A stretch of DNA of 64,000 nucleotides from contig NZ_CP058601.1 of assembly GCF_013402815.2 (NCBI RefSeq), positions 3,782,001 through 3,846,000 of the forward strand, read 5' to 3'. Positions 3,459 to 30,242 of this stretch are shown one piece after another. The DNA comes from Natrinema halophilum. Lineage in GTDB: Archaea; Halobacteriota; Halobacteria; Halobacteriales; Natrialbaceae. The position numbers and the translations under genes were made by a program. How positions within the stretch are numbered: position 1 is the first letter of the stretch; each line of letters begins with the position of its first letter. The notes beneath the pieces were generated by a model. The model worked only from the letters and a program-made list of their open reading frames with translations, made no database searches and had not been told where the DNA came from.

Positions 3459-3548
3459 AAACGTCCTGACGGAGTTCCACGCGAGCGGTAGCGAGCGTGG
3501 AGCACGTCAGGTCGTGATCGAAGTGAACGTCCTGACGGAGATTTGAAC
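3459..3548. repeat. 90-bp direct repeat, distal copy, with tRNA-Arg 3'-end sequence
   Basis: Exact copy of 3678-3767, offset by 219 bases. It contains GTCCTGACGGAG twice (3463 and 3529), the reverse complement of the tRNA-Arg 3' end. The second is followed by ATTTGAAC, so 20 bases of the tRNA 3' half are reproduced. Between them lies an inverted repeat around CCACGC...GCGTGG. Confidence 0.9.
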
Positions 3549-3677
3549 ACGCCAAGATGTTCCGGGCGTGCTGCCTCGCTTCGGTCGGCCGTTCCGGGCT
3601 GCAACTCGTCTGTTCAAATCTCCAGGGAGTTTCGCCGACACCAGCCGCTCGCTCCGCTCGCGGTTTGGTGTCAGCAG

Positions 3678-3767
3678 AAACGTCCTGACGGAGTTCCACG
3701 CGAGCGGTAGCGAGCGTGGAGCACGTCAGGTCGTGATCGAAGTGAACGTCCTGACGGAGATTTGAAC
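3678..3767. repeat. 90-bp direct repeat, proximal copy, overlapping tRNA-Arg
   Basis: Second exact copy of the repeat. Its right end (3748-3767) is the real 3' end of tRNA-Arg(GCG), so the repeat unit is tRNA 3' end plus downstream flank. The arrangement looks like tandem duplication of a tRNA-flank or serial insertion and loss at a tRNA attachment site. Confidence 0.9.
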
Positions 3768-5844: not shown

Positions 5845-6276
5845 ATGAACGTCGAACTCCCGTTCGCCCCGGTTGATACGATCATCCGGCGAAACGCGGG
5901 CGATCTTCGTGTGAGTGCCGACGCGTCGAAGGAACTCGCAACGCGGATTCAGAAACACGGGAGCGAACTCGCAATCGATGCGGCCGAGGAAGCAACAGCA
6001 GACGGCCGCAAAACGTTGATGGCGGAAGACTTCGGTGTCGAGACGGTCGTCGACAAAGACGACCTCGAGTTGCCGGTCGCACCGGTCGACCGGATCGCCA
6101 GACTGGAGATCGACAATCGGTATCGCGTCGCGATGGATGCCCGCATTGCCCTCGCCGACATTCTCGAGGATTATGCGGACAACGTCGCCCGAGCGGCGAC
6201 GATCCTCGCACACCACGCCGATCGGCGAACGATCACCGACGACGATATCGAGACGTACTTCTCGTTGTTCGAGTGA
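5845..6276 (+). CDS. hstA: Archaeal double-histone protein
   Basis: DNA-binding chromatin protein of 143 residues made of two histone folds in one chain (about 1-68 and 72-143). This is the haloarchaeal head-to-tail dimer form. Repeat starts are LPFAPVDTIIRRNAG and LPVAPVDRIARLEI, and the second fold ends in RTITDDDIETY. It is acidic, unlike eukaryotic histones. A TATA-like GCGTTAAGG about 30 bases upstream predicts a short or absent leader. The next gene, 4 bases after its stop, is a histone-deacetylase family enzyme, so the two are probably co-transcribed. Confidence 0.93.
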   Translation: MNVELPFAPVDTIIRRNAGDLRVSADASKELATRIQKHGSELAIDAAEEATADGRKTLMAEDFGVETVVDKDDLELPVAPVDRIARLEIDNRYRVAMDARIALADILEDYADNVARAATILAHHADRRTITDDDIETYFSLFE

Positions 6277-6280
6277 GCAA

Positions 6281-7312
6281 ATGCAGTTCGGCTACAGCGA
6301 GACCTGTCTCGCACACGATCCCGGTTCGCGCCACCCCGAGTCGCCGGACCGGCTACGGGCGATCCGGGAACGGCTGAAGAAGAAACACGGCGTCGAGTAC
6401 GTCGAGGCCGACCCCTGTGACCTCGAAACATTGGCGTCCGTTCACGACCGGGAGTATCTCGAGTCGGTCCGTGAGTTCTGTGTACAGGGCGGTGGGAGCT
6501 GGGATCCCGACACTGCCGCCGTCACGGAGACGTGGGACGCAGCCCGTCACAGTGCCGGCCTGGCTTGTTGGGCCGCCGAGGAATCGCTCGAGGGGGCATC
6601 GGGCCGTGAAACGCCGTTTTCGATCGGTCGACCGCCAGGCCACCACGCCGTCTTCGACGATGCCATGGGATTTTGCTTCGTCAACAACGTCGCCGTCGCG
6701 GCCCAGTACGCGCTCGATCACGACGCGTACGACGTCGATCGGGTCGCCATCGTCGACTGGGACGTCCACCACGGCAACGGGACGCAGGACCTCTTCTACG
6801 ACAGGGGTGACGTATTCTTCACCTCGATTCACGAGAAGGGGCTGTATCCCGGCACCGGCGCCGTCGACGAAACTGGCGAAGACGACGGCGAAGAGACGAC
6901 GATGAACGTACCGATGCAAGCCGGAGCCGGCGATTACGAATATCTAGCCGCGATCGACGGGCCCATCGCCGCCGCGATTACTGACTTCGATCCCGATCTG
7001 CTGTTGATCAGTGCTGGCTTCGACGCCCACCGCCACGATCCAATATCGCGAATCAGGCTCTCGACGGAGGCGTACGCGCTGATGTCCGATCGAATGCGAA
7101 CGCTCGCCAACGAGACCGACGCCGCGCTGGCGTTCGTCCTCGAGGGTGGCTACGGACTCGACGTCCTCGCCGACAGCGTCGCGTTAGTCCACGAGACCTT
7201 CGACGGACGCGAACCGATCGAACCCGACGACAAATCCGGTGAGGGAGAGAAGCCAACGTTCGACGACGTTCTCGACGCGCACGATCTCGACGTCGAACTG
7301 GACGAGAGATAG
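6281..7312 (+). CDS. hdaI: Histone deacetylase family (class II-like) enzyme
   Basis: Zinc-dependent amidohydrolase of 343 residues that removes acetyl groups from lysines or small acetyl-amines. Visible active-site elements are RPPGHHA (catalytic His pair), GFCFVNN, VDWDVHHGNG (Asp and His zinc ligands), SAGFDAH (third ligand Asp) and EGGYGL. The ATG at 6281 gives MQFGYSE, the usual start of this family, and lies 4 bases after the histone stop. A longer in-frame extension into the histone gene is not credible. In Haloferax the homologue is reported essential (from memory). Its in vivo substrate is unknown; the acidic histone is only a positional suggestion. Confidence 0.9.
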   Translation: MQFGYSETCLAHDPGSRHPESPDRLRAIRERLKKKHGVEYVEADPCDLETLASVHDREYLESVREFCVQGGGSWDPDTAAVTETWDAARHSAGLACWAAEESLEGASGRETPFSIGRPPGHHAVFDDAMGFCFVNNVAVAAQYALDHDAYDVDRVAIVDWDVHHGNGTQDLFYDRGDVFFTSIHEKGLYPGTGAVDETGEDDGEETTMNVPMQAGAGDYEYLAAIDGPIAAAITDFDPDLLLISAGFDAHRHDPISRIRLSTEAYALMSDRMRTLANETDAALAFVLEGGYGLDVLADSVALVHETFDGREPIEPDDKSGEGEKPTFDDVLDAHDLDVELDER

Positions 7313-7341
7313 GACTCGTCGGCCGCGTCGGCCGCGTCGGC

Positions 7342-8886
7342 TCAGGGACGGGGTTCGAAGTACGTTGCGAGTTCTGCAGCGAATTCGTCGAGCAGTGCCG
7401 TGACCTCCTCGCCGGTCAACACGTCGTAGCCGTCCCCGAGTGCCGTCTCGACGTGTGCGCCGAGACCCACATCGAAGAGTCGGTCGCTCTCGAGAAACGC
7501 CCGGGCGGTAGTGAACTCCCGGTCGCGTTCGGTCACGTAGCGGTCCCCCTCGATGAAGGGACCGTAGGCGTCAGGATCGTCGACGTACGCGGAATAGAAC
7601 CCCTTGGCGTGGTCGCGAACGGAAATCGGCGGCCCCTCGTGGCGCTCGAGCGCAGGTCGTTCGCTGACAGCAAGCTCGATAAAGACGACCGCAGTTTCGT
7701 CGGCGAACGTCGTTCCTCGGAAGGCGTCGAATCCACGGCCGTCAAGTTCACGCGTGATACCGTCGAGCGATTTTCGGAGTTGCGGGTAGAGCTGGTCTTC
7801 GACGAGGTCCGGAGACGTGAATCGGACGGCAACGGGGGTGGTTTTCCGGCGCTCGATGTGTGCGAGCAGGTCGGATTTCGACAACGGATCAGGCTCGTCG
7901 GGCCAGAACATATCCGGGCGTGGGGTCGTCAAGAACTCGCGAGCGTAGTGCTGGAGGCGAGCGACGTTGTCTGGCGAACAGACTGCGGCGACGTTGCGCT
8001 CGGGATCGGTGGGATCGATGACGATCAGCGGATCGTCGAACGGGAGGTCGGTGGTGCCGACCTTCTCGTTTCGAGATGGAGTTGCCGTCTCGCGTGCGCG
8101 GCCGTGATCTTCCGGGTCGAGTTCGACCGGGGGCTGCCAATCGGCAGCGGCCTCGAGAAACGGTCGGAAGCCGCCGTACTCGCAGACGAGTAACTCGGTG
8201 AGGTAACCGCTGAAACCCCGCGTCCGGAGGTCGCTGCCGTAGACCCCGATTCCCGTAAGGAACTGTTTCGTAACTCGAATGTCCCCTGCGAGGTCGTCGT
8301 CGAGTCGCGCCTGAAGATACCGGGTGTGGAACGGCGTTCGGTCGACGGCCGAACGGATTTCCGTGGCAGACTCGAGCCGAAAGCAGGGGACGACGTCGAC
8401 GTCGAATCCCTCGACCGTTCCTTTCACGTAGGGGTGTTCGGCGTACTCCTCGTGGCCCTCGGGGAGGGTCGCGTGGCCGACCTCGAGGCCGTACGTCTCA
8501 AGCGTTTCGCGGTCGAGATCCGGCGGGAAGCGCACGAAGATGTCGATATCCCGATCGCCGCTAATCCAGGTGTTTCTTGCCGTAGAGCCGACCTGCAAGA
8601 CGTCAGCGTCGGCACAGCGGTCGGTCGCGGCGCGTTCGGCTCGGTCGATGAGTCGCTCTGCAATCTCACGGAGATGTGACCGTTCGTCTGCGTCGGGGGT
8701 CACTTCGGCTCGAATCTCGGCGACGATCCGCTCGAGGGAGTGATCCGTGTCTCCATCCGACGACCCGTCTCGTCCGTCAGCGCGAGAATCGCGCTGGCTG
8801 CACGTCGAACCGTGGTCGACACCGTCGTTGGCCCGTGGTCGACCACTCGGATCGCGTTCGCCACTGTCGTCGTCCTCCTCACTCAT
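7342..8886 (-). CDS. cca: CCA tRNA nucleotidyltransferase (archaeal class I)
   Basis: Adds or repairs the 3' CCA of tRNAs, necessary here because none of the tRNA genes in the window encodes CCA. The 514 residues include the nucleotidyltransferase core GSTARNTWISGDRDIDIF with the metal-binding DxD pair (about residues 104-125), then the body and tail domains of the archaeal enzyme. The first 60 residues are an acidic, low-complexity extension; the conserved part begins around IVAEIRAEVTPDADER, so an internal start is possible. It converges on the deacetylase gene with a 29-base gap. I am confident of the family. Confidence 0.92.
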   Translation of the reverse strand: MSEEDDDSGERDPSGRPRANDGVDHGSTCSQRDSRADGRDGSSDGDTDHSLERIVAEIRAEVTPDADERSHLREIAERLIDRAERAATDRCADADVLQVGSTARNTWISGDRDIDIFVRFPPDLDRETLETYGLEVGHATLPEGHEEYAEHPYVKGTVEGFDVDVVPCFRLESATEIRSAVDRTPFHTRYLQARLDDDLAGDIRVTKQFLTGIGVYGSDLRTRGFSGYLTELLVCEYGGFRPFLEAAADWQPPVELDPEDHGRARETATPSRNEKVGTTDLPFDDPLIVIDPTDPERNVAAVCSPDNVARLQHYAREFLTTPRPDMFWPDEPDPLSKSDLLAHIERRKTTPVAVRFTSPDLVEDQLYPQLRKSLDGITRELDGRGFDAFRGTTFADETAVVFIELAVSERPALERHEGPPISVRDHAKGFYSAYVDDPDAYGPFIEGDRYVTERDREFTTARAFLESDRLFDVGLGAHVETALGDGYDVLTGEEVTALLDEFAAELATYFEPRP

Positions 8887-8981
8887 CGAATGGGGGTACT
8901 CGCGCCCCGCGTGAAAGAGTATCGAACCACGGGAAGCGAAAACGAAAGCCCTATCAAATCAACCCGGCTATCACAGGACGA

Positions 8982-9086
8982 GCCGAAGTAGCTCAGATGG
9001 TAGAGCACCTCGCTGTTACGGTGATGCAGGCCTGTCCTGTTCGCCGCAGATACGAGGTTGTCCCAGGTTCGAGTCCTGGCTTCGGC
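8982..9086 (+). tRNA. tRNA-Asn (GTT anticodon) with an intron
   Basis: Acceptor arms GCCGAAG and CTTCGGC pair perfectly. The anticodon stem CCTCG/CGAGG encloses CTGTTA plus an insertion, so the anticodon is GTT (Asn) at 9015-9017. The T-arm CCAGGTTCGAGTCCTGG is complete. The extra 33 bases lie at the canonical position 37/38. Confidence 0.93.
9019..9051 (+). other. Archaeal tRNA intron (bulge-helix-bulge)
   Basis: A full BHB motif can be drawn. The central 4-bp helix is CTGT (9013-9016) with GCAG (9046-9049). The three-base bulges are TAC (9017-9019) and ATA (9050-9052), and the intron helix is GGTG/CGCC followed by CAGG/CCTG. Cleavage after the second base of each bulge removes 9019-9051 and leaves a 7-base anticodon loop. 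Confidence 0.88.
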
Positions 9087-9244
9087 GCTTTTACGGAACT
9101 CTTGTCTCGCGAGAACCGTCCCGTCGTTCGAACGTAACCGCGGCTATATTCGCGACCAGCGGCGTCCAGTCGCCGAGCATACCGTCCGTCTACGGTCGCC
9201 GATTCGGGGGAGGGATTAACGTCGTCCGGCACCGACGTGATCAC

Positions 9245-9829
9245 ATGCCAAGCGACAGCGACGATCGTCGGAGTACCGACCATCACGGCCACGACATCGT
9301 AGATCCGCTCTACGTCGGGATCGTGACCGTCTCGAGTTCGCGCGCAGCCAAACCGGATCCCGACGATCCGGGTGGCGACACGATCCAGGAGGCGTTCGAA
9401 GCTGACGGCCACGAAGTACAGGAGCGATTGCTGGTCCGGGACGATTACTCGGCGATCCGGACCGCCGTCAGGAGGCTAGTCGCGCGAAGGGATATCGATG
9501 TCGTGTGTACCACGGGTGGCACGGGCGTCACCGCCGACGACGTTTCGCCGGAGGCGACCTCGTCGCTGTTCGAGCGCGAGTTACCGGGCTTTGGCGAACG
9601 CTTCCGCTCGCTTTCGTGGGACGAAGTCGGAACACGAGCGATAGCCTCCCGTGCGACGGCAGGTATCGCCGTCGATACGCCGGTTTTTTGTCTTCCCGGA
9701 AGCCAAAGCGCGTGCGAAACGGCCTGTGAAGAGTTGATCGTCCCCGAGACGCCACACCTCGCGGGGCTCGCGACGCGCCATCGCACCGGAACCGACGACC
9801 AGACGCTCGCCGATTATCAAACGGACTAA
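9245..9829 (+). CDS. moaB: MoaB/MogA-family molybdopterin adenylyltransferase
   Basis: Predicted to adenylylate molybdopterin before metal insertion in molybdenum/tungsten cofactor synthesis. The 194 residues hold the MoCF-binding fold, with the signature TTGGTGVTADDVSPEA (about residues 89-104) and a second conserved loop LPGSQSACETA. The first 20 residues are polar and not part of the fold. It stands alone, with no other cofactor genes beside it, as is common in haloarchaea. Confidence 0.88.
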   Translation: MPSDSDDRRSTDHHGHDIVDPLYVGIVTVSSSRAAKPDPDDPGGDTIQEAFEADGHEVQERLLVRDDYSAIRTAVRRLVARRDIDVVCTTGGTGVTADDVSPEATSSLFERELPGFGERFRSLSWDEVGTRAIASRATAGIAVDTPVFCLPGSQSACETACEELIVPETPHLAGLATRHRTGTDDQTLADYQTD

Positions 9830-9916
9830 TCGACTCGTTCGGCCACGGCTTCGGGCCGAGCAGTCACCTGCCCTGAACCAGGATTTTTTGGGTTCCATCG
9901 CGTGCGTTCGAATGCC

Positions 9917-10045
9917 ATGTGTCATCACTTCGAAATCGCGACCGAACTCGATGAAGAGGAACGCGAGGCGATCCTCGAGTCCCACGACGAAGCCGAACTG
10001 GAGGCAGCGTTGACCGACGACGAACTCGAGGCGCTAATCGCGTAG
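9917..10045 (+). CDS. Small acidic protein with MCHHFE start
   Basis: A 42-residue frame, MCHHFEIATEL..., almost entirely Asp/Glu/Ala/Leu helices with strong haloarchaeal codon bias (GAC/GAG/CTC) and a Cys-His-His start that could bind a metal. It lies between moaB and the CAU tRNA. I recall similar tiny haloarchaeal proteins beginning MCHH but know no function. A competing ATG at 9912 is out of frame and closes at once. Confidence 0.6.
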   Translation: MCHHFEIATELDEEEREAILESHDEAELEAALTDDELEALIA

Positions 10046-10124
10046 CGACTCCAACCGTCTCGGCTTTCTCGCGGGCGTACCGGACAGCAAGTGTTAATTA
10101 CTGCGCGCGATTTTTCCCGATTGA

Positions 10125-10198
10125 GGGCCCTTAGCTCAGTCTGGTGAGAGCGCTCGGCTCATAACCGAGTGGTCGATGGTTCGAATCCGTCAGGGCCC
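10125..10198 (+). tRNA. tRNA with CAU anticodon (Ile2 or elongator Met)
   Basis: Acceptor arms GGGCCCT/AGGGCCC pair perfectly. The anticodon stem is CTCGG/CCGAG with loop CTCATAA, so the anticodon reads CAT. The T-arm is GATGGTTCGAATCCGTC. The base after the acceptor is A. An elongator Met tRNA in Halobacteria usually carries an intron and this one does not, which favours the Ile tRNA whose C34 becomes agmatidine, but I cannot settle it. Its 3' end is repeated at 10280-10302 and in degenerate form at 30220-30242. Confidence 0.9.
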
Positions 10199-10302
10199 AT
10201 GGAGCGAGACGAGTATTCACGAGTCTCGCGGACTGGAACCCTGCGGATTCGAATCAGGAAGCGGCTTCGCCGCGACCGCGGTTCGAATCCGTCAGGGCCC
10301 AT
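10178..10302. repeat. Left flanking repeat (attL-like) of the 20-kb element
   Basis: The last 23 bases of the tRNA region (10178-10200) recur exactly at 10280-10302. The block from 10189 to 10302, including the 79-base spacer GGAGCGAGACGAG..., is repeated about 90% identically at 30128-30242. This is the expected structure for an attachment site at a tRNA 3' end. Confidence 0.8.
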
Positions 10303-10499
10303 CCGCTTACTACCCGAAGTGTGGCCGAAACGGATTCGGCCGATAAGGGGGGCTTGAGTTACTCGAGGGGCTTATACTCACTTTTCGAGTCACACCACTC
10401 TCAACCGGAGTCGAACCAGTCACTGGTTCCGGGTCGACGCCGTCTTGCGAAACTAGTAGCCGAAACGAGGTGGTCGGCGTGACGGTCTCGCCATGGTAG

Positions 10500-10709
10500 T
10501 CTGTCGACAAATCTACATGTCAGCACTGCGGAGCCCACGTTACCGACCGGTTCCGCCGCGTCTTTGGTGACGATGATGATCGAGCCCATCGCTGTGGTGA
10601 CTGTGATTCGTCCGCTCGTCTGAGCCGTGGCTCCGCTGCTGGCGTCGACGTTGCGGTTCCTGATCCGGAAACGTCGCCCGGCCGTCACGGGGGTGAGATC
10701 GATGCGTAA
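10500..10709 (+). pseudogene. DUF7563-like small zinc protein, start lost
   Basis: The frame reads CQHCGAHVTDRFRRVFGD...HRCGDCD, then a Ser/Gly-rich tail ending in TAA at 10707. It carries two CxxC pairs and closely resembles the DUF7563 zinc-ribbon proteins of haloarchaeal plasmids and proviruses. No ATG, GTG or TTG lies between the upstream in-frame TAG (10497) and the first Cys, so the start codon appears mutated. It marks the left end of the element as plasmid/virus-derived. Confidence 0.6.
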
Positions 10710-10912
10710 GGACGGGGTCGTGCCTGCGAGGAGACTGTACGACGTCGAGAGTCGAACGCCCATAGCCCATCCGGCCTATCAAGCGACGGACGCGGACGTT
10801 CGGCAGGCGCTCGAAAACCAGGAAATTCGAGCAGGTGGTGGACAATCCTCGATCGATTATAACTGGCCTAGTTCTGGACATCAGCTGGCCAGTTCAAGGG
10901 AAGAATTTGGGC

Positions 10913-11215
10913 TCAAAAAAGCGACTTCAGCCGATCAAATAAGCTATTTTCATCATCTGAGGATTTGTCATCTGAATCATCCACAGCGGTCTCTTCGCTC
11001 GTCGATTCTTCTCTTTGAGTTTGATCAGGTGTATCTAATCGCGAAAGCGCCTGGTCAAGGTCAAAGTCGTCTGTCCGTATCTCGTGTTTCTTGGTCCCTG
11101 GCTCAGAAGTTTCGACAGGCTGCATTACGCTATCTCCGCATCTGGGGCAAGTACGCGAATTTCGCATTACCACCTCTCCGCAGTTCTGACACTGAAAGCG
11201 GAGCGTGTCGGTCAT
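10913..11215 (-). CDS. Zinc-ribbon protein with acidic tail
   Basis: A 100-residue protein whose N-terminus is a four-cysteine ribbon, FQCQNCGEVV then CPRCGDSV, typical of haloarchaeal small zinc proteins. The C-terminal half is Asp/Ser/Glu-rich and ends in a short amphipathic helix, SLFDRLKSLF. It is transcribed away from the next genes. Function unknown; such ribbons often bind nucleic acid or protein partners. Confidence 0.65.
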   Translation of the reverse strand: MTDTLRFQCQNCGEVVMRNSRTCPRCGDSVMQPVETSEPGTKKHEIRTDDFDLDQALSRLDTPDQTQREESTSEETAVDDSDDKSSDDENSLFDRLKSLF

Positions 11216-11300
11216 TTACCCTCTGTGGTCGGCCATGTGATATAGTTCCAGCGTCGAGAGCAGTGGATTCGGATACCGACTCTAAGGGGAGTGATTCACG

Positions 11301-11420
11301 ATGAACTGCCTCGTCAAATCAGACGAGTGCGAGCGGTGCGGTGATCGAATCGACGCGCTCCGACGACTGTGTGCTGACTGTACGCGAATCGTCCGCGACG
11401 CGCGGGAGGGACCACTATGA
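11301..11420 (+). CDS. Tiny CxxC protein coupled to the winged-helix gene
   Basis: A 39-residue frame, MNCLVKSDECERCGDRIDALRRLCADC..., with two CxxC pairs forming a minimal zinc finger. Its stop overlaps the next start (ATGA at 11417-11420), which argues for translational coupling and for both being real. This kind of micro zinc protein is frequent beside replication or regulator genes in haloarchaeal elements. Confidence 0.6.
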   Translation: MNCLVKSDECERCGDRIDALRRLCADCTRIVRDAREGPL

Positions 11421-12304
11421 GTTCTCGAGCATCGGCGCTCGAGAGTCCGAAAGCTAGCGGCGACGCCCTCGAGGCCGAGATCGTCCAGGTTGTCGACGAA
11501 CTCGAGTACGTTGGTGATCGGACGGCTACCTGGCACGACGCCAGGACGACGGCTGTCCTCGAAGCGAGTCGGTCACTGCCGTTCTACGGGATCGTTCTCG
11601 TCGAGTCGGACGTTCCGATCGAGATCAAAGGCTGCCAGATCGAGACGAGCAACGGTGGCCGGTCGACTCGCGGTCGGTTCTACGTGAAGCGAGCGGCGCA
11701 CGAGCAACTGCTCGAGGCGAAATCGGATCACCTGTTGATGACAACGCTTCGGGACATGGGCGAGACTGCCCTCGACGTCACCGAACGAGTTGCGACCGAC
11801 GGTGGCGCGACAGTCGACGATCTCGCCGACCAGCTGGGGAAACATCCTGCGACGATCTACCGAGCGATCTCCGATCTCGGCGATGTCCTCGAACTCGACC
11901 AGGGCGATGTGTCGTTCCGTACCCGGAAGTACCGCGAGGAACTACGCGCACTCGTCGAGTCGGCCGAGTACGCGATCGAGAGCTATGCAGATCGGATGCA
12001 GCATATCATGGGCTTGGCCGATCACGTTGCGGAGTCGTCGCCGTTTCAGAAGTGGCTCGCGAAGAACGGCGCCGAACTCTCGTTCGACGACCAGGGCGAA
12101 CCCCGGCGGATGCGAATTGATACGATTCTCTCGAGGCTGAAGTCGGACAGCTTCGAGAACGTCCAGACACTGGCGAGTGAAGCTCTCGAAAAGTGGTCCC
12201 GATCGGGGAATGATCCGACGGTCCTTCGAGGAGCCGAGTTGACCTGGAAGACACCAGGCGGCGGAACGGAAACCGGGTTCGTCGGTGCTGTCGCCGACCG
12301 CTGA
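11417..12304 (+). CDS. Winged-helix DNA-binding protein of the element
   Basis: A 295-residue protein with a helix-turn-helix at about 125-165 (TVDDLADQLGKHPATIYRAISDL), shown here only by its ends: TVDDLADQL and HPATIYRAISDL. The N-terminal 100 residues contain a small beta domain (YGIVLVESDVPIEIKGCQI), and the C-terminal part is helical. I recognise it as a type common in haloarchaeal plasmids and integrated elements, with no assigned function; regulator or replication accessory are both possible. It overlaps the CxxC micro-gene by 4 bases and is followed by a structured noncoding region. Confidence 0.6.
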   Translation: MSSRASALESPKASGDALEAEIVQVVDELEYVGDRTATWHDARTTAVLEASRSLPFYGIVLVESDVPIEIKGCQIETSNGGRSTRGRFYVKRAAHEQLLEAKSDHLLMTTLRDMGETALDVTERVATDGGATVDDLADQLGKHPATIYRAISDLGDVLELDQGDVSFRTRKYREELRALVESAEYAIESYADRMQHIMGLADHVAESSPFQKWLAKNGAELSFDDQGEPRRMRIDTILSRLKSDSFENVQTLASEALEKWSRSGNDPTVLRGAELTWKTPGGGTETGFVGAVADR

Positions 12305-12687: not shown

Positions 12688-13206
12688 TCAATTCACTATG
12701 CCTTTGTCCACCAAAACGGACAGGTTTCTCAATATCACCAAGAGATTCAATAGATAATGGGCTAACAAATAATATAGAAATCCAGACATTAATTCTATAC
12801 TGTGAAAGGAACTGCTACCAAAGTCTATTGACAAGTATACGATAAAAGAATACAAGAGAGTTATGAAGGAAATTAGAAGCGCATAAAGTGAACTACTTTT
12901 AGTAATCTCAATCGCTTTCTTTTCTTCATGAGGAAGCTTTGATGTATTGGTACCTGATAAGAGAATTGCTGCATTAAACGTAAAACCAAAAAGTATCGTT
13001 AGGGCTGTAACAACTAATATAATAAAGTTCACAGTCGCGGTGTAATATGGGACCAATAATACCGTTGCTGCTGGAAGGCCCAGAAGAATGAGAAGATCCA
13101 TCCAAGCAGCGGGTGAATCTTTGATAATATTCGAATAGTGGTTTCTGATTATAGGGGTGATGTTCACCAAGCCGAAATATTCGTTAAGATTCATGAGACT
13201 TTTCAC
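12688..13206 (-). CDS. Four-helix membrane protein of the AT-rich module
   Basis: A 172-residue integral membrane protein with four predicted segments at about 33-55, 57-83, 106-129 and 137-166, and a charged cytoplasmic loop (HEEKKAIEITKSS) between the second and third. The GTG start at 13206 overlaps the TGA stop of the upstream gene (GTGA), so the two are co-translated; an ATG at 13194 is an alternative. Base composition is far more AT-rich than the flanks, indicating recent acquisition. No family recognised. A small multi-pass protein paired with a soluble partner resembles sensor-plus-membrane-effector defence pairs, but that is inference. Confidence 0.8.
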   Translation of the reverse strand: MKSLMNLNEYFGLVNITPIIRNHYSNIIKDSPAAWMDLLILLGLPAATVLLVPYYTATVNFIILVVTALTILFGFTFNAAILLSGTNTSKLPHEEKKAIEITKSSSLYALLISFITLLYSFIVYLSIDFGSSSFHSIELMSGFLYYLLAHYLLNLLVILRNLSVLVDKGIVN

Positions 13207-14240
13207 TGAAAGTCAGAAATAGTAGTCTTTCGGTCATCTCGGCCCCTACTATCATCTACTTCTCCATATTCATATTCATAGTCACCATGCAGAATTGTTT
13301 CATCGCTGATGTGCAAATCATCGTACTCATCCAAGATGTAGTTCGCAAACTCTCTAGCTTTCACAGAAATTGTTTCTGGTGTGGGATGACCACCAATGAT
13401 GTCTACGTCTGTGTTATTTAGAATCATTCGCATATCTACTCGAGGGTTAACAGCAGAGAAAGTCAGTTCAGAGCCTCCTTGCTCTATAGTTATTTTCTTT
13501 TCATCAAACTCATCTAATTCAATCCCCGCATATTTTATTTCTTTGTTGAAAAGAGGTTTAAGCACCTCTGGAAGAAAGGTAGTCGTTTGAGGACGCAACA
13601 CAAATTCTCTATTGATATTTTGTACATTTGCACTCTCGCCATCAACCTCATCAATAGATCTTAACTTCGACTTCCCTTTCAATCGAATTTTCTTTATGCG
13701 ATCGGCTCTTTGGATTGCTGACCAATAATCTTCAGTAACTGCTCTAGAATCCTCGTAGATCCCAGACTGGGTGACGCCTTGGAGGATTTTTTGAAATCGG
13801 TCTGTGGCAATTCGTTTTACACCCTTATTTTCAAACTCCCGTAAAATAAGCAGAGCGCGGTCTGTGTTATTGCTTGGAAGGTAAAATAAAAAGTAGAATG
13901 GAATCTCTTCGGAGATATCCGTCGTCCGCGCTTCATACTCTCTACTACCTTTTCTTTTATCGAAATGGTTTGCGATGACGCCAGAATCTCCTTTTAAATA
14001 TTGACCTTCAATCAGATTCCCTGACCTTTCGTAAAATTCTACAGTAAATGTTTCATCATTTGCTTCATCCACGTATGTATAATCCGTGTAGCACCTACAA
14101 ACGTCCTCAAAAATATCTACGATTGAACCATAATAGAGCCCCACCTCATGATCCCTTAATTCAGACAAATCCCAATAATTTTTATCTGATCCTCTTTCCT
14201 TCAATTGTATCCAATACGCAACTAATTTATTAGATGACAT
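13203..14240 (-). CDS. Unknown soluble protein of the AT-rich module
   Basis: A 345-residue soluble protein opening MSSNKLVAYWIQLKERG. The N-terminal half is predicted beta-rich, with a segment EIPFYFLFYLPSNNTDRALLIL that resembles a recurring motif in bacterial hypothetical proteins of similar length. The C-terminal 170 residues are mixed alpha/beta. No nuclease, ATPase or methylase motif is visible. It is the first gene of a two-gene operon with the 4-TM protein. A TATA-like CTTAAGAT about 25 bases before the ATG predicts a leaderless message. The DNA is roughly 40% GC against about 60% around it, so it came from a different source than the rest of the element. Confidence 0.8.
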   Translation of the reverse strand: MSSNKLVAYWIQLKERGSDKNYWDLSELRDHEVGLYYGSIVDIFEDVCRCYTDYTYVDEANDETFTVEFYERSGNLIEGQYLKGDSGVIANHFDKRKGSREYEARTTDISEEIPFYFLFYLPSNNTDRALLILREFENKGVKRIATDRFQKILQGVTQSGIYEDSRAVTEDYWSAIQRADRIKKIRLKGKSKLRSIDEVDGESANVQNINREFVLRPQTTTFLPEVLKPLFNKEIKYAGIELDEFDEKKITIEQGGSELTFSAVNPRVDMRMILNNTDVDIIGGHPTPETISVKAREFANYILDEYDDLHISDETILHGDYEYEYGEVDDSRGRDDRKTTISDFQ

Positions 14241-14596
14241 TGTGGCGATAAGTTAGAAATCTTAAGTTGGCCGTCTGTTGGTAACCAAGGTGATATGCAA
14301 GTGGCTTAATTCTAACGGGTCTACAGGATCACAGATCAAATGTAGATAGTTTCAGATTTTATCACTCACTCCCGCCTGTCGTCTGAGGGAGTTACGTGCA
14401 GACACTCCCCCTAGAGGTTGCACGTCGACAGAATCCGATTCCCGAATATGCACACGAGACGGGAGACGTCGTGGGCAGATCTCGAGGTGACCCATCACCG
14501 AACCCGCCGTTCTTCTCTGGCCGGCCGACACGTACCGCCGATTTCAGGCCGAAATCGGCCGTCCAGTGAGTCGAAAAAACGAGGATTTCGGGGGTC
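14241..14596. other. Intergenic region with a perfect hairpin
   Basis: No gene supported. A perfect 9-bp stem with a 5-base loop, GCCGATTTC-AGGCC-GAAATCGGC, lies at 14535-14557, about 40 bases before the next start, and could be a regulatory or recombination site. Composition changes back from AT-rich to GC-rich near 14390. Confidence 0.4.
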
Positions 14597-14913: not shown

Positions 14914-15066
14914 ATGAGCCTCACTACTGACGACTTCGCCGAATTCATGGCTGGCGATCCGGAGGACGATGAGGCGGTTCCGCTGGGCGACGCGCTCAAC
15001 GAGCTCGCTGTCGACGTCGAGGTCGACGCCGTCGAAGAGGTCCGTGACGTCCGCGAACGGCTATGA
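14914..15066 (+). CDS. VapB-like antitoxin
   Basis: A 50-residue acidic protein, MSLTTDDFAEFMAGD..., whose stop overlaps the ATG of the PIN toxin by four bases (ATGA). Size, position and coupling are those of an antitoxin that wraps around its PIN partner, though no DNA-binding motif is clear in it. It would neutralise the toxin and possibly bind the operon promoter with it. Confidence 0.6.
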   Translation: MSLTTDDFAEFMAGDPEDDEAVPLGDALNELAVDVEVDAVEEVRDVRERL

Positions 15067-15452
15067 AGATCTTTCTCGATACGAACGTTATCGTCGCGGC
15101 GGTCACGAAAGACACGGAACGGTCCGAGACGGCCGTTCGTGTTCTCAACGAGTTCGACGAGACGTACACGTCCGTTCTGAATCTCATGGAGCTTCGGAGC
15201 GTTCTGACGAAAAAGAAAGCCATCGAACGTGAACGCGTCGAACAGATCGAGCAGCGGATCAGTTCCCGAGCTACCGTGACGTTCCCCGACGCCTCAGACA
15301 TGGTCGCCGCCAATCAGCTACAGAACGAAACACTTCTCTACCCGATGGATGCTCTCATCCTTGCTGCAGCCGATGCCGTCGACGCCACTCTCGTTTCGTT
15401 CGATGGTGAACTGAGAGAGCACGGTGCAGAGCGACCGCAAGATCTCGTCTGA
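15063..15452 (+). CDS. vapC: PIN-domain toxin (VapC family)
   Basis: A 129-residue PIN ribonuclease. The acidic metal-binding residues are visible: D6 in MKIFLDTNVI, E43 in NLMELRSVL, D near residue 98 in YPMDALILAAA, and a last D in VSFDGEL. VapC toxins cut tRNA or rRNA when freed from their antitoxin, giving growth arrest and plasmid or island maintenance. Here it is coupled to the small gene upstream and fits an addiction module of the element. All catalytic positions appear intact, so it may be functional. Confidence 0.85.
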   Translation: MKIFLDTNVIVAAVTKDTERSETAVRVLNEFDETYTSVLNLMELRSVLTKKKAIERERVEQIEQRISSRATVTFPDASDMVAANQLQNETLLYPMDALILAAADAVDATLVSFDGELREHGAERPQDLV

Positions 15453-18834: not shown

Positions 18835-19707
18835 CTATCGGTCGAGAGGAAGCGGTGGTCGTGGCACTTCTTCAGCATTTGTCAGGGTCTTCGCTCCCCA
18901 GATTGCTGTAAGCAGAACTGCGAGCAGCACCCAGTGAGAGTAATAGATTACGTCCGCAACCTCGATCGTTTCGGAGACGAAATTGACCCACCCGTGCATC
19001 AGGATGATGCCGAGAATGCTGCGCGACGTGTGGTTGTAGACCCACGTGAACGCCACCGAGAGGGCTACAGTCCCGACCATGAACAGCCAGAATCCCAGCG
19101 TTCCGAATCCAACCATCTCACGCTGAAATGTTCCTTCGATAAAGAACAGCGGGAGGTGCCAGACCGCCCACACCGCTCCCAAGATCACACTGGCATTCAA
19201 CGCAGACCAGTTCAGCTGAAGCCGGTCCAGTGCATAGCCTCGCCATCCTAACTCTTCGAGGATGGGCGGGAGCGACGCAAAGAATAGCGCTGGCAGGATT
19301 GCAAGTGGATTTCCGCCAAATTCCTGTACCCCTTCGCCCCACGTTGCGCCTGGACCACCCAATAGCAGATCTACCACTGCAGCTACGGTCGTCACGGCCA
19401 GTGGGAGCAGAAGAAGTACCAGAAACCACCGGCTGCCGATTCGGCGAACCTGCGTGATGCGACTCCAGAAATCCGATCGCCCGCGGTCGTCGTAGACGAG
19501 GTACACGAACCCGATGCCCGCAATCCCGGGGCCAACGAGCCCCGTTAGTAGCAACACGAGCCCTGCAGCGCTGGAAAAGCTCACCTCAAGGACGATAGCC
19601 GACAGCCAGAAGCTCCACGTTATGAGGAATGTCACGCCAAAGAACAGCCACGGGTTTGCGACAGAGACGGTCGTCGTACCGATCGTGAACCGTGATGGTT
19701 CGTTCAT
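18835..19707 (-). CDS. CPBP-family intramembrane metalloprotease (first of three)
   Basis: A 290-residue membrane protease with about eight helices. The CAAX-protease/bacteriocin-processing motifs are EELGWRG (near residue 150), the His of HLPLFF (near 184), and a final HGWVNF (near 238), which together bind the catalytic metal. Members process prenylated or other membrane proteins or protect against peptide toxins; the target here is unknown. Two more homologues lie at 23.6 and 28.1 kb. It is separated from the DUF998 gene by about 195 bases with no evident gene. Confidence 0.85.
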   Translation of the reverse strand: MNEPSRFTIGTTTVSVANPWLFFGVTFLITWSFWLSAIVLEVSFSSAAGLVLLLTGLVGPGIAGIGFVYLVYDDRGRSDFWSRITQVRRIGSRWFLVLLLLPLAVTTVAAVVDLLLGGPGATWGEGVQEFGGNPLAILPALFFASLPPILEELGWRGYALDRLQLNWSALNASVILGAVWAVWHLPLFFIEGTFQREMVGFGTLGFWLFMVGTVALSVAFTWVYNHTSRSILGIILMHGWVNFVSETIEVADVIYYSHWVLLAVLLTAIWGAKTLTNAEEVPRPPLPLDR

Positions 19708-23586: not shown

Positions 23587-24537
23587 ATGGATTCTCATGC
23601 GACTCCTGACCGGGGAACGAGCGAGTCCAGAATACACACTCGAAAAGTAGGGCTCTTTCTCGCGCTTGCGTTCGGTATCGCCTGGACCGGTGCCATCGTC
23701 CTCTCCCTCGTTGGGATTGAACTCAGGACGTTCGCCGGACTCGTGTTGGTGGTCGTGGTGGTCATGTGGGCACCGGCGTTCGCTGCGATCGGAACACAAC
23801 TCCGGTACGGTGAGTCTATTCGGAAGGGGTGTGGACTCGCTCTGGGACGGCTTCGATGGGTCGGACTCGCGTGGGTAACGCCGGTTGCTCTCGTTGCCGC
23901 CACGATAGGTGTCGGAACCGCCTTTCCGGGTGTGTCGTTTACCACGGATTACACAGCGTATCTGCTTGAGTTGGGGTTACCACAGGAACAAGCCGCCGAG
24001 ACGGTCGCGCAACTGGAAACGGTGCCTGTTCCACCTGCTGTTCTCTTCGTCGTTCAGGGTCTCGTCGCGGGTTTGACGATCAACGCCCTCGCGGCGCTGG
24101 GCGAGGAACTCGGATGGCGCGGGCTACTACTCACGGAACTCGCTCCGCTCGGATTCTGGAAATTTTCCCTATTCACAGGCGCGGTCTGGGGCATTTGGCA
24201 CGCGCCGATCATCCTTCAGGGCCACAACTTTCCCGACGCACCGCTTGCGGGTGTGTTCGTAATGACTGCCGCGACGATTGCGATGACGCCGATCTACACG
24301 TACTTGACCCTCCGCGCTCGATCCGTACTCGCTGCGACCGTCCTTCATGGATCGTTCAACGGACTGGGAGCACTGTCGCTGGTCTACCTCACGGGAGCCG
24401 GAAACCTCGCAACCGCTCCCGTCGGCGTCGCTGGCATCGGTGCTGCGGTGTTCATTACTGCGCTTTGCGTCGTCCACGACAGAATCATCGCAGACGAACG
24501 TATTATGACTGGACGCCCGCTGTCTCCGTGGGTGTGA
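23587..24537 (+). CDS. CPBP-family intramembrane metalloprotease (second)
   Basis: A 316-residue protease with eight or nine helices. Active-site motifs are EELGWRG (near residue 172), HAPII (near 204) and HGSFNG (near 253). Compared with the 18.8-kb homologue it has a longer third loop and similar motif spacing, so the two are paralogues or independent acquisitions rather than fresh duplicates. It reads away from the IS-end remnant and faces the convergent hydrolase gene with a 30-base gap. Target unknown. Confidence 0.85.
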   Translation: MDSHATPDRGTSESRIHTRKVGLFLALAFGIAWTGAIVLSLVGIELRTFAGLVLVVVVVMWAPAFAAIGTQLRYGESIRKGCGLALGRLRWVGLAWVTPVALVAATIGVGTAFPGVSFTTDYTAYLLELGLPQEQAAETVAQLETVPVPPAVLFVVQGLVAGLTINALAALGEELGWRGLLLTELAPLGFWKFSLFTGAVWGIWHAPIILQGHNFPDAPLAGVFVMTAATIAMTPIYTYLTLRARSVLAATVLHGSFNGLGALSLVYLTGAGNLATAPVGVAGIGAAVFITALCVVHDRIIADERIMTGRPLSPWV

Positions 24538-28081: not shown

Positions 28082-28954
28082 ATGAGCAGTCAGATACCAT
28101 GGATCGAAGCGCATCCAGTCGCAGCGTTCTTCGTCGGCGCATACGCCTACACGTGGATTGTTTCGGCACCGGCCGTGTTCATGGAAGCGAGCTGGACCGC
28201 TTGGATTCTCGTCGTCATTGGCAGTTTCGGGCCACCGGTGAGCGCAGCAATGGTAACGTGGTTGCGGGGCGACGACGTCAGGGCCTGGGCACGCCAGATC
28301 GTTCACTGGCGAGTCGGCTGGCCCTGGTGGGTCGCCGCCTTTGGGCTACCGGTTGCTATCGTCGCGGTCACCACAGTCGTTCTCATGGCTATCGGCGGTC
28401 CGGTCGATCTCGATCACCCCCTCCAGTCACCCGTTCTTATCCCCATTATCTTCCTCTTCGGACTCACGGTCAGCGGTGGGTTGAATGAGGAACCAGGGTG
28501 GCGAGGGTTTGCACAACCTTATCTGAACGATCGGTACAGTGCGCTGACGGCGAGTCTCATCATCGGCGTGGTCTGGGCTGTCTGGCATCTCCCATACTTT
28601 CTCATTCCCGTCACACCCCACTCCGGATTCACGATCGCAAATCAGGTCGGGTGGTTTGCTGGTATCATCCTGTTGTCGGTTATTCTTGGATGGGCCTACA
28701 ATAACACGGGCAGCGTGCTTATCGTGATGGTCCTCCACGCCATGGTGAACACCGCTGACGTGCTCCTCCCACTGGCACCGGATGTACTCGTCGTCGATGG
28801 CGTCATCGATGAGACCGCCGTCGCAACAGTCACGGCAACACAACTGGGGGTCCAACTACTCGTCGCCCTCGCTATTGTGGCGTACTTCGGTCGGGAATCT
28901 CTCGCTCGCGGTGAGATACCGGGCATAGCACAACTCAGAGGAGAGAACCGATGA
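28082..28954 (+). CDS. CPBP-family intramembrane metalloprotease (third)
   Basis: A 290-residue membrane protease with about eight helices and the motifs EEPGWRG (near 135), HLPYF (near 170) and HAMVNT (near 219). It starts with MSSQIPWIEAHP after a TATA-like ATATTTATC about 30 bases upstream, implying a short leader. Its stop overlaps a 19-codon frame that leads to a truncated ABC ATPase gene. CPBP proteases next to ABC transporters can belong to peptide-export or immunity cassettes; here the transporter has been destroyed. Confidence 0.85.
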   Translation: MSSQIPWIEAHPVAAFFVGAYAYTWIVSAPAVFMEASWTAWILVVIGSFGPPVSAAMVTWLRGDDVRAWARQIVHWRVGWPWWVAAFGLPVAIVAVTTVVLMAIGGPVDLDHPLQSPVLIPIIFLFGLTVSGGLNEEPGWRGFAQPYLNDRYSALTASLIIGVVWAVWHLPYFLIPVTPHSGFTIANQVGWFAGIILLSVILGWAYNNTGSVLIVMVLHAMVNTADVLLPLAPDVLVVDGVIDETAVATVTATQLGVQLLVALAIVAYFGRESLARGEIPGIAQLRGENR

Positions 28955-29012: not shown

Positions 29013-29163
29013 ATGGCTACGATCGAAATCGACGACGTTCAACTCGCTTACGGCGACGTGACGGCACTGGACGGACTCTCAATGAGATTTGATCCGGGGT
29101 TCAACGTCGTTCTAGGGCCGAACGGATCGGGCAAAACGACGCTGTTCCGCGTCGGAGCCGGCA
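29013..29163 (+). pseudogene. ABC transporter ATPase, truncated after Walker A
   Basis: The frame MATIEIDDVQLAYGDVTALDG ... VVLGPNGSGKTTLFRVGAG is a normal ABC ATPase start with an intact Walker A motif. About residue 50 it runs into sequence that is the opposite-strand integrase gene, so signature motif and Walker B are gone. The junction is at about 29161-29166. An internal deletion of the element probably fused the two. Confidence 0.75.
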
Positions 29164-29165
29164 AC

Positions 29166-30022
29166 GAGGAAGGACATGCATATGAGTGCTCGGTAGGCAT
29201 CGCGTCGCAATTGTCGAAGTCCCGGTCGTGAGGGCAACTATCCCGGTCGTGAGGGCAACTATCGGTGTACACGCACGGGCGCGCGTACTGGTCGACGATC
29301 GTCCAACCACGGGTCCGGCTCAACCGATCGATTTTCGTCGCAAACAACGGTTCACGGTCATACTGATCAACGACTCCTGGATGATTGACCGACAACCAGT
29401 CATCTAACACCTCGCAGACTGGGTCACTCAGTGCAGCGAGCCGTTCGCTCTTTCGACCATTCTTGAGCGCGGTGCCTTCCTCAGGTCGATGAACAGGGCA
29501 GAGATACTGCTCGTCGGCGATGTAGCCGTTTTTATCAAGTCCGATGGCTGCTCCAATGCGCAGGCCAGTGTGCCAGAGGACTTCCATCAGCGCATGTTCT
29601 CAGCGCGCGTAGCGATATTGGTCGAGAACTGTCAGTATCTGCTGGGCACGCTCAGGATTCAGCAATTCTGTTCGAGTATCATCCTCGGTTGTTGTCGGGA
29701 GGATAATCTTCTCGTCGAGTCCTGGTTCGACTGCATCGATTGTCCCACAGAAGCGGAGGAACATTCTCAGGGTTGCCAGCTAGCCCTTCATGCTGGCTGT
29801 TGCGAGCCCGTCCTCGTTTCGTCGTTTCACACGGAACCGGTGGATGTCTCGCCCGCTAAATTCGGTGAGATTATTGATGCCATCCTGTTCACACCACTGG
29901 ACGAACTGCCTGAGACGGTACCGTTGCGATTGTATCGTCGCGTCCGCAAGTTCGTGGCGTCGCTCATCGAGGTCCATTTGCATCGCTGCTGCTGGCGCGA
30001 GGGGTTCGAGCTCGTCTGTCAT
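29166..30022 (-). pseudogene. Tyrosine recombinase (integrase) with two stops and lost C-terminus
   Basis: The N-terminal SAM-like core-binding domain begins MTDELEPLAP and includes YRLRQFVQWCEQ. A TAG at about 29780 interrupts it (TASMKG-stop-LATLRMFLRFCG), and a TGA at about 29599 precedes the catalytic domain (YRYAR-stop-EHALMEVLWHTGLRIGA), all in one frame. The first catalytic Arg is in HTGLRIG; the zinc-like CVYTDSCPHDRD segment follows, carrying a 21-bp tandem duplication (SCPHDRD twice). The sequence ends at ACPSS, so the R-x-x-R / H-x-x-Y end is missing. It would have integrated the element at the adjacent repeat. Confidence 0.85.
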
Positions 30023-30127: not shown

Positions 30128-30242
30128 CCGTCAGGGCCATGGAGCGAGACGAGCATTCAAGCGTCTCGCGGACTGGAACCCTGCGGATTCGAATCAGGGA
30201 TCGACTTCGCCGCGACGGCGGTTCGAATCCATCAGGGCCAAT
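30128..30242. repeat. Right flanking repeat (attR-like)
   Basis: About 115 bases matching 10189-10302 at roughly 90%: CCGTCAGGGCCAT, then the GGAGCGAGACGAG spacer, then GGTTCGAATCC(A)TCAGGGCC. Both tRNA-derived ends carry changes relative to the intact tRNA (one C lost, G to A), as expected in an old non-functional copy. Confidence 0.8.

Follow-up and report, generated by a model that had tools for sequence, protein, structure and literature searches.

A candidate RexAB-type virus-exclusion gene pair in a tRNA-Met element of the haloarchaeon Natrinema halophilum

Two overlapping genes in a 64,000-nucleotide stretch of the Natrinema halophilum genome (contig NZ_CP058601.1, positions 3,782,001 to 3,846,000; hereafter the window) encode a soluble protein, A, followed by a small protein with four transmembrane (TM) helices, B, and together they probably constitute a stand-alone, sequence-divergent virus-exclusion (abortive-infection) system of the RexAB type. 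The RexAB-type label is based on the predicted fold of A, on its profile homology to RexA-like proteins and on the architecture of the pair. An earlier note on this DNA had described an AT-rich module of two genes overlapping as GTGA, and the description holds: the genes, both on the minus strand, encode 345 and 172 amino acids, have G+C fractions of 0.39 (A) and 0.36 (B) against a window mean of 0.57 and values of 0.58-0.63 across six 1-kb blocks at positions 6001-12000, and share four bases in an overlap that is consistent with translational coupling. The four membrane helices proposed for B are seen as four hydrophobic segments in its hydropathy profile and as a helical bundle in its AlphaFold2 (AF2) model, with a mean predicted local distance difference test (pLDDT) score of 88. 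Comparison of this model with the PDB returned generic helical bundles alone, from which no conclusion was drawn.

Neither gene is a chance open reading frame (ORF), because a related pair on the Natrinema salinisoli plasmid NZ_CP084471 (amino-acid identity 90% for A and 87% for B) differs from it in a coding-like manner, with substitutions at codon positions 1/2/3 of 18/15/100 in A and 17/15/66 in B, and because distant relatives exist at identities of 22-33% for A and 18-30% for B. The N. salinisoli 4-TM gene (NZ_CP084471.1, 97184-97702) is missing from the PLSDB gene table, which is incomplete, and small overlapping genes with GTG starts may be under-annotated.

Fold and RexA kinship of the soluble protein

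Searches with the window pair against Pfam, PADLOC, NCBIfam and PHROGs recognised neither protein. B gave two sub-threshold Pfam matches, weak Pfam matches among the relatives of A and B scatter over unrelated families, and sequence searches of the PDB with two A alignments (A1 and A7) yielded a chance-level match only.

Structural comparison of the AF2 model of A (mean pLDDT 69.7) with the PDB placed lambda RexA (8twq) first in Foldseek (E 1.9e-5, prob 1.00), followed by Iml3 (E 1.3e-2). Structural re-ranking with VIA likewise put RexA 8twq on top (Z 9.2, 222 aligned residues, root-mean-square deviation 15.7), with Iml3 (4kr1) and RdgC (2owy), both at Z 7.0, as runners-up. This order is coherent, since RdgC, IML3 and CHL4 are named as structural relatives of RexA (PMC11077077). 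Among the BFVD matches of the A model, uncharacterised phage proteins take the first four places, and the fifth match carries the annotation 'Recombination associated protein' (Xanthomonas phage FoX4). On this predicted model, which is of moderate confidence, A has the RexA/RdgC fold. Pfam and NCBIfam hold an RdgC model, and Pfam also holds one for DUF4747. No Pfam or NCBIfam match to the RdgC family was found for A, which resembles it in fold only; DUF4747, a weak HHpred label on RexA-like proteins (PMC6426606), is not among the 13 Pfam families matched by 18 A members at E ≤ 1.

Profile comparison links A to experimentally tested RexA-like proteins, a homology that is weaker in subsets of the family. 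In hhalign, a pooled archaeal and bacterial A profile (28 rows) aligned with the proteins of actinophages CarolAnn, Sbash and Sejanus (3 rows) over 295 columns, with prob 96.1, a score of 71.1 and an E of 2.8e-9 that holds for a single comparison; four further bacterial rows in the pooled profile brought E to 2.5e-10. The controls for the score of 71.1 reached 14.5 on reversal, a maximum of 18.1 in 100 column shuffles and a maximum of 20.3 with 13 unrelated single proteins, while the three actinophage proteins, each compared alone with the A profile, scored 43.8-59.1. On fold and profile, it is very likely that gene A is RexAB-type by descent. The earlier note had suggested that the module might be undescribed and had asked for a structure and profile search: this resolved A to a RexA-like protein, with no housekeeping or phage structural family found, so that 'undescribed' stands insofar as four libraries hold no model for the pair, and falls insofar as the pair resolves to the RexAB type with the same soluble-then-4-TM order.

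Conserved pairing in archaea and bacteria

Relatives were examined under locus labels (L followed by a number) and genome labels (G followed by a number). Gene A is present in 19 of 391 Halobacteria genomes, at 20 places, and an A profile search of 392 genomes sampled across the phylum matched 11, six of them already found and five outside Halobacteria. A 4-TM gene lies directly downstream of A in 14 of the 19 Halobacteria genomes and in all five outside the class (19 of 24 archaeal genomes in total); this partner measures 164-212 amino acids, and across these 19 pairs the gap between the two genes ranges from -8 to +4 bases. Hydropathy at the threshold used detects only three TM segments in the B proteins of L003 and L005, which were counted as partners on alignment. 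The other five genomes comprise intact singletons at L014 and L016, which form a clade of their own (support 100/100), and three unjudgeable cases, L004 and L006 at contig edges and a fragment at L018. Not included among the 24 genomes is a Halobellus plasmid (L036; NZ_CP134948.1, ~6004-8260) that carries a decayed pair, its A being short and its 4-TM gene split by an IS1595-family transposase gene. In one genome, two copies of the pair (L007 and L020, G057:C1) lie ~22 kb apart, with identical ORF coordinates within both loci.

The archaeal relative L028 led to Acinetobacter plasmids, and onward searches reached further plasmids of Acinetobacter and Serratia as well as Pf phages. More bacterial members came from a genome scan, which added two contigs, and from 390 genomes of the Acinetobacter genome's order, which added two genomes (3 matches including the query's own). 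Viral contigs contained no relatives for two queries, nor did phage records for P0001 or L028 as query. A 4-TM gene follows A in all nine distinct bacterial loci (L034, L035, L039, L040, L041, L048, L049, L092 and L093; A is shortened in L035), a count from which L042, whose A is identical to that of L041, and the second ANC 7933 plasmid (H28) were left out. Profile comparison unites the members from haloarchaea, from other archaea and from bacteria in a single family (E 3e-20 to 3e-34 for A; E 1e-9 to 4e-22 for B). The arrangement of a soluble gene and an adjacent 4-TM gene is thus found in the window, in 19/24 archaeal genomes and in 9/9 bacterial loci. This bears out the earlier note's reading of a coupled module whose layout suits a defence system of soluble sensor and membrane effector, and the pair does recur elsewhere, where its absence would have spoken against that reading.

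In the reciprocal search, a haloarchaeal B profile gave four matches in 294 genomes, three of them at known pairs (which other known-pair genomes were drawn is not listed) and the fourth a weak one within a 749-amino-acid frame (G511), probably due to chance. Mirror-tree comparison of A and B distances yielded r 0.94 over 25 pairs, the best of 2000 permutations reaching 0.27, and r 0.94 against 0.70 within the 14 haloarchaeal pairs; the mirror test was run without L035 and the tree without L006 and L035, and the L018 fragment was dropped from the A alignments. These results establish A and B as a conserved, co-evolving pair. The invariant columns of B are I19 (N-terminal helix), P45 (TM1), G74 (TM2), T102 and Y108 (TM2-TM3 loop and TM3), and S141, H150 and Y151 (TM4); one TM4 position is mostly polar (H, Q, N).

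On the maximum-likelihood tree (33 rows), archaeal L029 falls within the bacterial clade (97/99), a placement that suggests movement of gene A between archaea and bacteria. Neither the haloarchaea nor the other archaea form one group on the best tree, and the CarolAnn-type proteins sit on a long branch apart from the A family. The pair was found on plasmids, in integrative elements, in Pf phage and beside integrases, and the Pfam family Phage_integrase is present in 5/125 neighbouring ORFs, the neighbour set alone having been scanned, with no control. In PADLOC, 125 ORFs from around the pair matched 110 models and 125 control ORFs matched 17; these are counts of matched models, not of proteins, and many of the models may fall on few proteins, with the best 25 of the 110 inspected; the sample comprised 125/155 near ORFs and 125/146 control ORFs of at least 110 amino acids, chosen at random after rough heuristic calling.

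Several copies have distinctive surroundings. In Pseudomonas Pf phages (L041/L042) the pair occupies an accessory slot next to a repressor gene and is annotated as hypothetical, and on an Acinetobacter plasmid (L035; NZ_CP026418.1) it lies ~2.4 kb from the tet(39) resistance gene, near BrnT/BrnA. Two distant haloarchaea carry a ~220-amino-acid protein adjoining the pair (L007:277-954 and L012:3047-3712) with N-termini that are alike by eye. In four haloarchaeal genomes (L008-L011) a ~390-amino-acid gene is located downstream of B (e.g. L058:10830-12020); its start resembles, by eye, the N-termini of type I restriction HsdR proteins, no PDB relative was found for the L058 gene, and HSDR_N_2 matches 5/125 neighbour ORFs in Pfam, perhaps this gene among them. 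The pair and this third gene form a possible three-gene cassette.

Proposed mechanism and rival readings

Because the archaeal family keeps an A of predicted clamp fold together with a conserved B, A-triggered membrane damage by B is the most likely mechanism. The model proposed for lambda, CarolAnn, Sbash and Pseudomonas putida is that the RexA-like protein detects infection and activates the 4-TM RexB-like protein, with membrane damage and growth arrest as the outcome (PMC6426606, PMC6426596, PMC12894663). By analogy, A would be a RexA/RdgC-fold infection sensor, probably dimerising as a clamp on DNA, that encounters a DNA-protein complex of viral replication or recombination, or else a protein of the virus, and then engages the charged, presumably cytoplasmic TM2-TM3 loop of B. 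B, probably oligomeric, would open a pore or otherwise damage the membrane, whereupon cell growth would stop and the infection would be aborted. DNA binding by A, contact between A and B, pore formation and defence are all steps that we infer; we judge there to be a good likelihood that the pair serves in defence, and we lean, somewhat less firmly, towards B as the effector and A as its activator.

A number of observations weigh against an assignment to the RexAB type. Several loops of the moderate-confidence A model have pLDDT under 50, its structural TM-scores with RexA are low (0.34/0.40) and the Foldseek root-mean-square deviation is 18.5, meaning that there is no good global superposition, and the RexA Z of 9.2 leads the next folds by two units. 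The link to CarolAnn and Sbash depends on the pooled profile, with prob 86.6 for the haloarchaea, 17.7 for the other archaea, and 2.0 (5 rows) or 80.0 (9 rows) for the bacterial subset, and lambda RexA was unmatched by A sequence in hhalign with single sequence and richer alignments (best prob 4.1, E 0.01). For the window pair, PF15969/PF15968 and the PADLOC RexA and RexB models gave no match at E ≤ 10, and the RexA and RexB Pfam families are absent from the matches of 18 A relatives and from the 25/28 families listed for 14 B relatives; the Pfam and PADLOC Rex models do match lambda RexA and RexB, used as positive controls. By sequence, the archaeal pair is therefore placed outside the lambda-type RexA and RexB families of Pfam and PADLOC.

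Further points on the same side concern B and the setting of the pair. It is topology, size and position that point to a RexB role for B, whose sequence matched no characterised RexB-like protein (best prob 13.5 with the CarolAnn set and 23.5 with gp31 of phage Butters) and gave a best prob of 2.2 with lambda RexB (hhalign, single sequence and richer alignments). Intact A copies at L014 and L016 lack any B, the gene upstream of the bacterial pair L093 was unmatched to lambda CI (BLASTP E 0.24), and no functional data were found for any close relative. With RexBpp of P. putida, some of the cells became permeable but no depolarisation could be measured (PMC12894663), and 'ion channel' may for this reason be too specific a term for B. 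The lack of a RexB match does not weigh heavily, because the known RexB proteins are themselves unmatched to each other (lambda RexB against the CarolAnn set, prob 0.1) and HHpred gave no probable homologue for RexBpp (PMC12894663).

The polarity of the pair could be the opposite one, with A as a growth-blocking effector and B as a membrane-tethered antitoxin that holds A inactive until infection. Such is the case described for phage Butters, whose RexA-like gp30 suffices and is restrained by gp31 (as told in PMC12894663); a weak kinship with the Butters proteins is possible, given prob 10.6 for the A profile against gp30 and the above value for gp31, and the intact solitary A genes would suit an effector that acts alone. 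Against a slightly larger A profile, however, gp30 scored 29.0, below all three CarolAnn-type proteins, the authors of the CarolAnn and Sbash studies propose that the A-like protein activates the B-like one (PMC6426606, PMC6426596), and a solitary A would be unrestrained under this polarity, which we consider quite improbable. It is also unlikely that the pair has no antiviral role and serves mobile elements as a toxin-antitoxin (TA)-like or stabilisation module, or that it regulates the lysogeny or excision of its own element. Its presence in integrative elements, plasmids and Pf phage would fit such a role, as would the action of lambda RexA, which modulates the CI/Cro bistable switch independently of exclusion (PMC11077077), the position of L093 A next to a gene with a LexA/UmuD-type domain, and a nearby ORF at 11417-12304, 0.4 kb beyond B, that appears helix-turn-helix-like by eye and had no match in a Pfam search; yet many archaeal copies reside on chromosome-sized contigs, and the neighbourhood, counted as matched models, leans to restriction and defence.

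The earlier note had pointed to Kiwa (KwaA/KwaB) for the similar sizes and the 4-TM partner. The gene order of Kiwa is reversed relative to the archaeal pair, and both Pfam and PADLOC hold Kiwa models. These were unmatched by the window pair (KwaA/KwaB in PADLOC, DUF4868 in Pfam, as the note's own remark on DUF4868 had foreseen), and DUF4868, KwaA and KwaB are not among the Pfam matches listed for the 18-member A and 14-member B alignments; absence of Kiwa or other families from the Foldseek and VIA lists was not taken as exclusion. With RexA as the best fold match, a Kiwa-like system in reversed order is highly improbable and finds no support.

If the pair is indeed of the RexAB type, we would raise, as a tentative and rather doubtful extension, that RexAB is in essence no prophage accessory but an old free-standing two-gene immune module of archaea and bacteria, carried about by plasmids, islands and filamentous phages, and that the cI-tied lambda version is one descendant that was captured and tamed. 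In that event, archaeal immunity would gain, with the archaeal copies, its first known sensors of the RexA/RdgC/Iml3 fold.

The tRNA-Met element and comparison with known systems

The pair lies inside a ~20 kb element flanked by tRNA-Met repeats, which agrees with the tRNA-targeted element of the earlier note; the two copies of the repeat have exact blocks of 17 and 36 bases in common. The integrase-like remnant just inside the right repeat (PF00589, E 8.6e-5, 22.8 bits, below the Pfam cut-off of 27.1) looks broken, and the element is therefore probably immobile by itself now. Of the TA pair reported nearby, the toxin half is supported by its PIN domain. The element also contains Rce1-like CAAX protease genes at 23587-24537 and 28082-28954 (Pfam), with a similar one, by eye, at 18835-19707, and elsewhere in the window a 90-base exact direct repeat (at 3459 and 3678; span 3459-3767) adjoins a tRNA-Arg.

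Table 1. Positions in the window of the gene pair and of features of the surrounding element.
Feature	Position	Strand	Basis or remark
Gene A, RexA-like soluble protein, predicted DNA-clamp-fold sensor/activator	13203..14240	-	ATG start, 345 aa; AF2 model, RexA fold match, profile match
Gene B, RexB-like 4-TM protein, predicted pore/channel effector	12688..13206	-	GTG start, 172 aa; AF2 model, hydropathy, pairing
GTGA stop/start overlap of A and B	13203..13206	-	4 bases shared
Putative own archaeal promoter of the pair	14241..14300	-	TATA-like AACTTAAG, 21-28 bases upstream of the start codon; by eye
Left attachment-type repeat	10197..10258	+	Starts in last 3 bases of tRNA-Met (10125-10199)
Right attachment-type repeat	30137..30198	+	Direct-repeat copy of 10197-10258
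Tyrosine-integrase-like remnant	29048..30022	-	Pfam match to ORF 29048-29587; extension to 30022 by eye
PIN-domain gene, toxin half of reported TA pair	15063..15452		Pfam

RexAB was the earliest abortive-infection system to be linked with defence against phages, and five RexAB-type systems have been described according to the 2026 P. putida paper (PMC12894663). No report of an archaeal RexAB was found among the papers listed for the literature searched, in which subscription papers and bioRxiv were thinly covered. A DefenseFinder survey records RexAB only in Proteobacteria, with its authors cautioning that models are limited (PMC9090908), and the accessible main text of a 2026 survey of 7747 archaeal genomes contains no word beginning 'rex' (PMC12988326). 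As far as these searches go, RexAB-type systems have so far come from Proteobacteria and actinophages, and the archaeal pair would be the first in archaea. The trigger and the membrane effect of RexAB are still unsettled. A family present in haloarchaea, other archaea, Acinetobacter and Serratia plasmids and Pf phage would carry RexAB into a second domain of life, provide many natural variants with which to test RexA sensing and RexB action, and add to defence-finding tools, the searched version of PADLOC missing the archaeal pair.

Among known systems, Kiwa shares with the archaeal pair its two genes, one of them with 4 TM helices. RdgC and the kinetochore proteins Iml3/Chl4 have a fold class in common with A (VIA Z 7.0 for RdgC and for Iml3), which has no Pfam match; they are not known to have a membrane partner and serve cellular functions. 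Lambda RexA-RexB has the same order of a soluble gene followed at short spacing by a small 4-TM gene, but it differs in its lengths (279/144 amino acids against 345/172), in the lack of a sequence match for either protein and in the archaeal host of the present pair, and no cI-like gene was identified upstream of the pair in the window. In bacterial L093, by contrast, A follows at 30 bases a gene that carries a LexA/UmuD-type domain (E 1.7e-5), and this order of repressor-like gene, A and B resembles lambda cI-rexA-rexB, which speaks for the RexAB type.

Closer in sequence are the actinophage systems CarolAnn gp44/gp43, Sbash gp30/gp31 and Sejanus gp46/gp45, in which the A-like protein is related to A over ~295 columns, has a similar length and is encoded in the same order with a membrane partner behind it, whereas the B partner is unrecognisable by sequence and the setting is that of a phage. 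The defence function of CarolAnn gp44/gp43 and Sbash gp30/gp31, of this same layout, has been tested (PMC6426606, PMC6426596), and Sbash gp31 loses its activity when residues of its central loop are exchanged (PMC6426596). RexABpp of P. putida prophage P1 (PP_5643-PP_5644) has the layout of the archaeal pair, and likewise combines a 4-TM partner with the lack of a BLAST-assigned function (PMC12894663). The RexBpp residues named in the accessible text of that paper fit none of six bacterial B proteins checked, and the best structural match of RexABpp is also RexA 8TWQ, with a Dali Z of 8.8 there (PMC12894663) and a VIA Z of 9.2 for A here.

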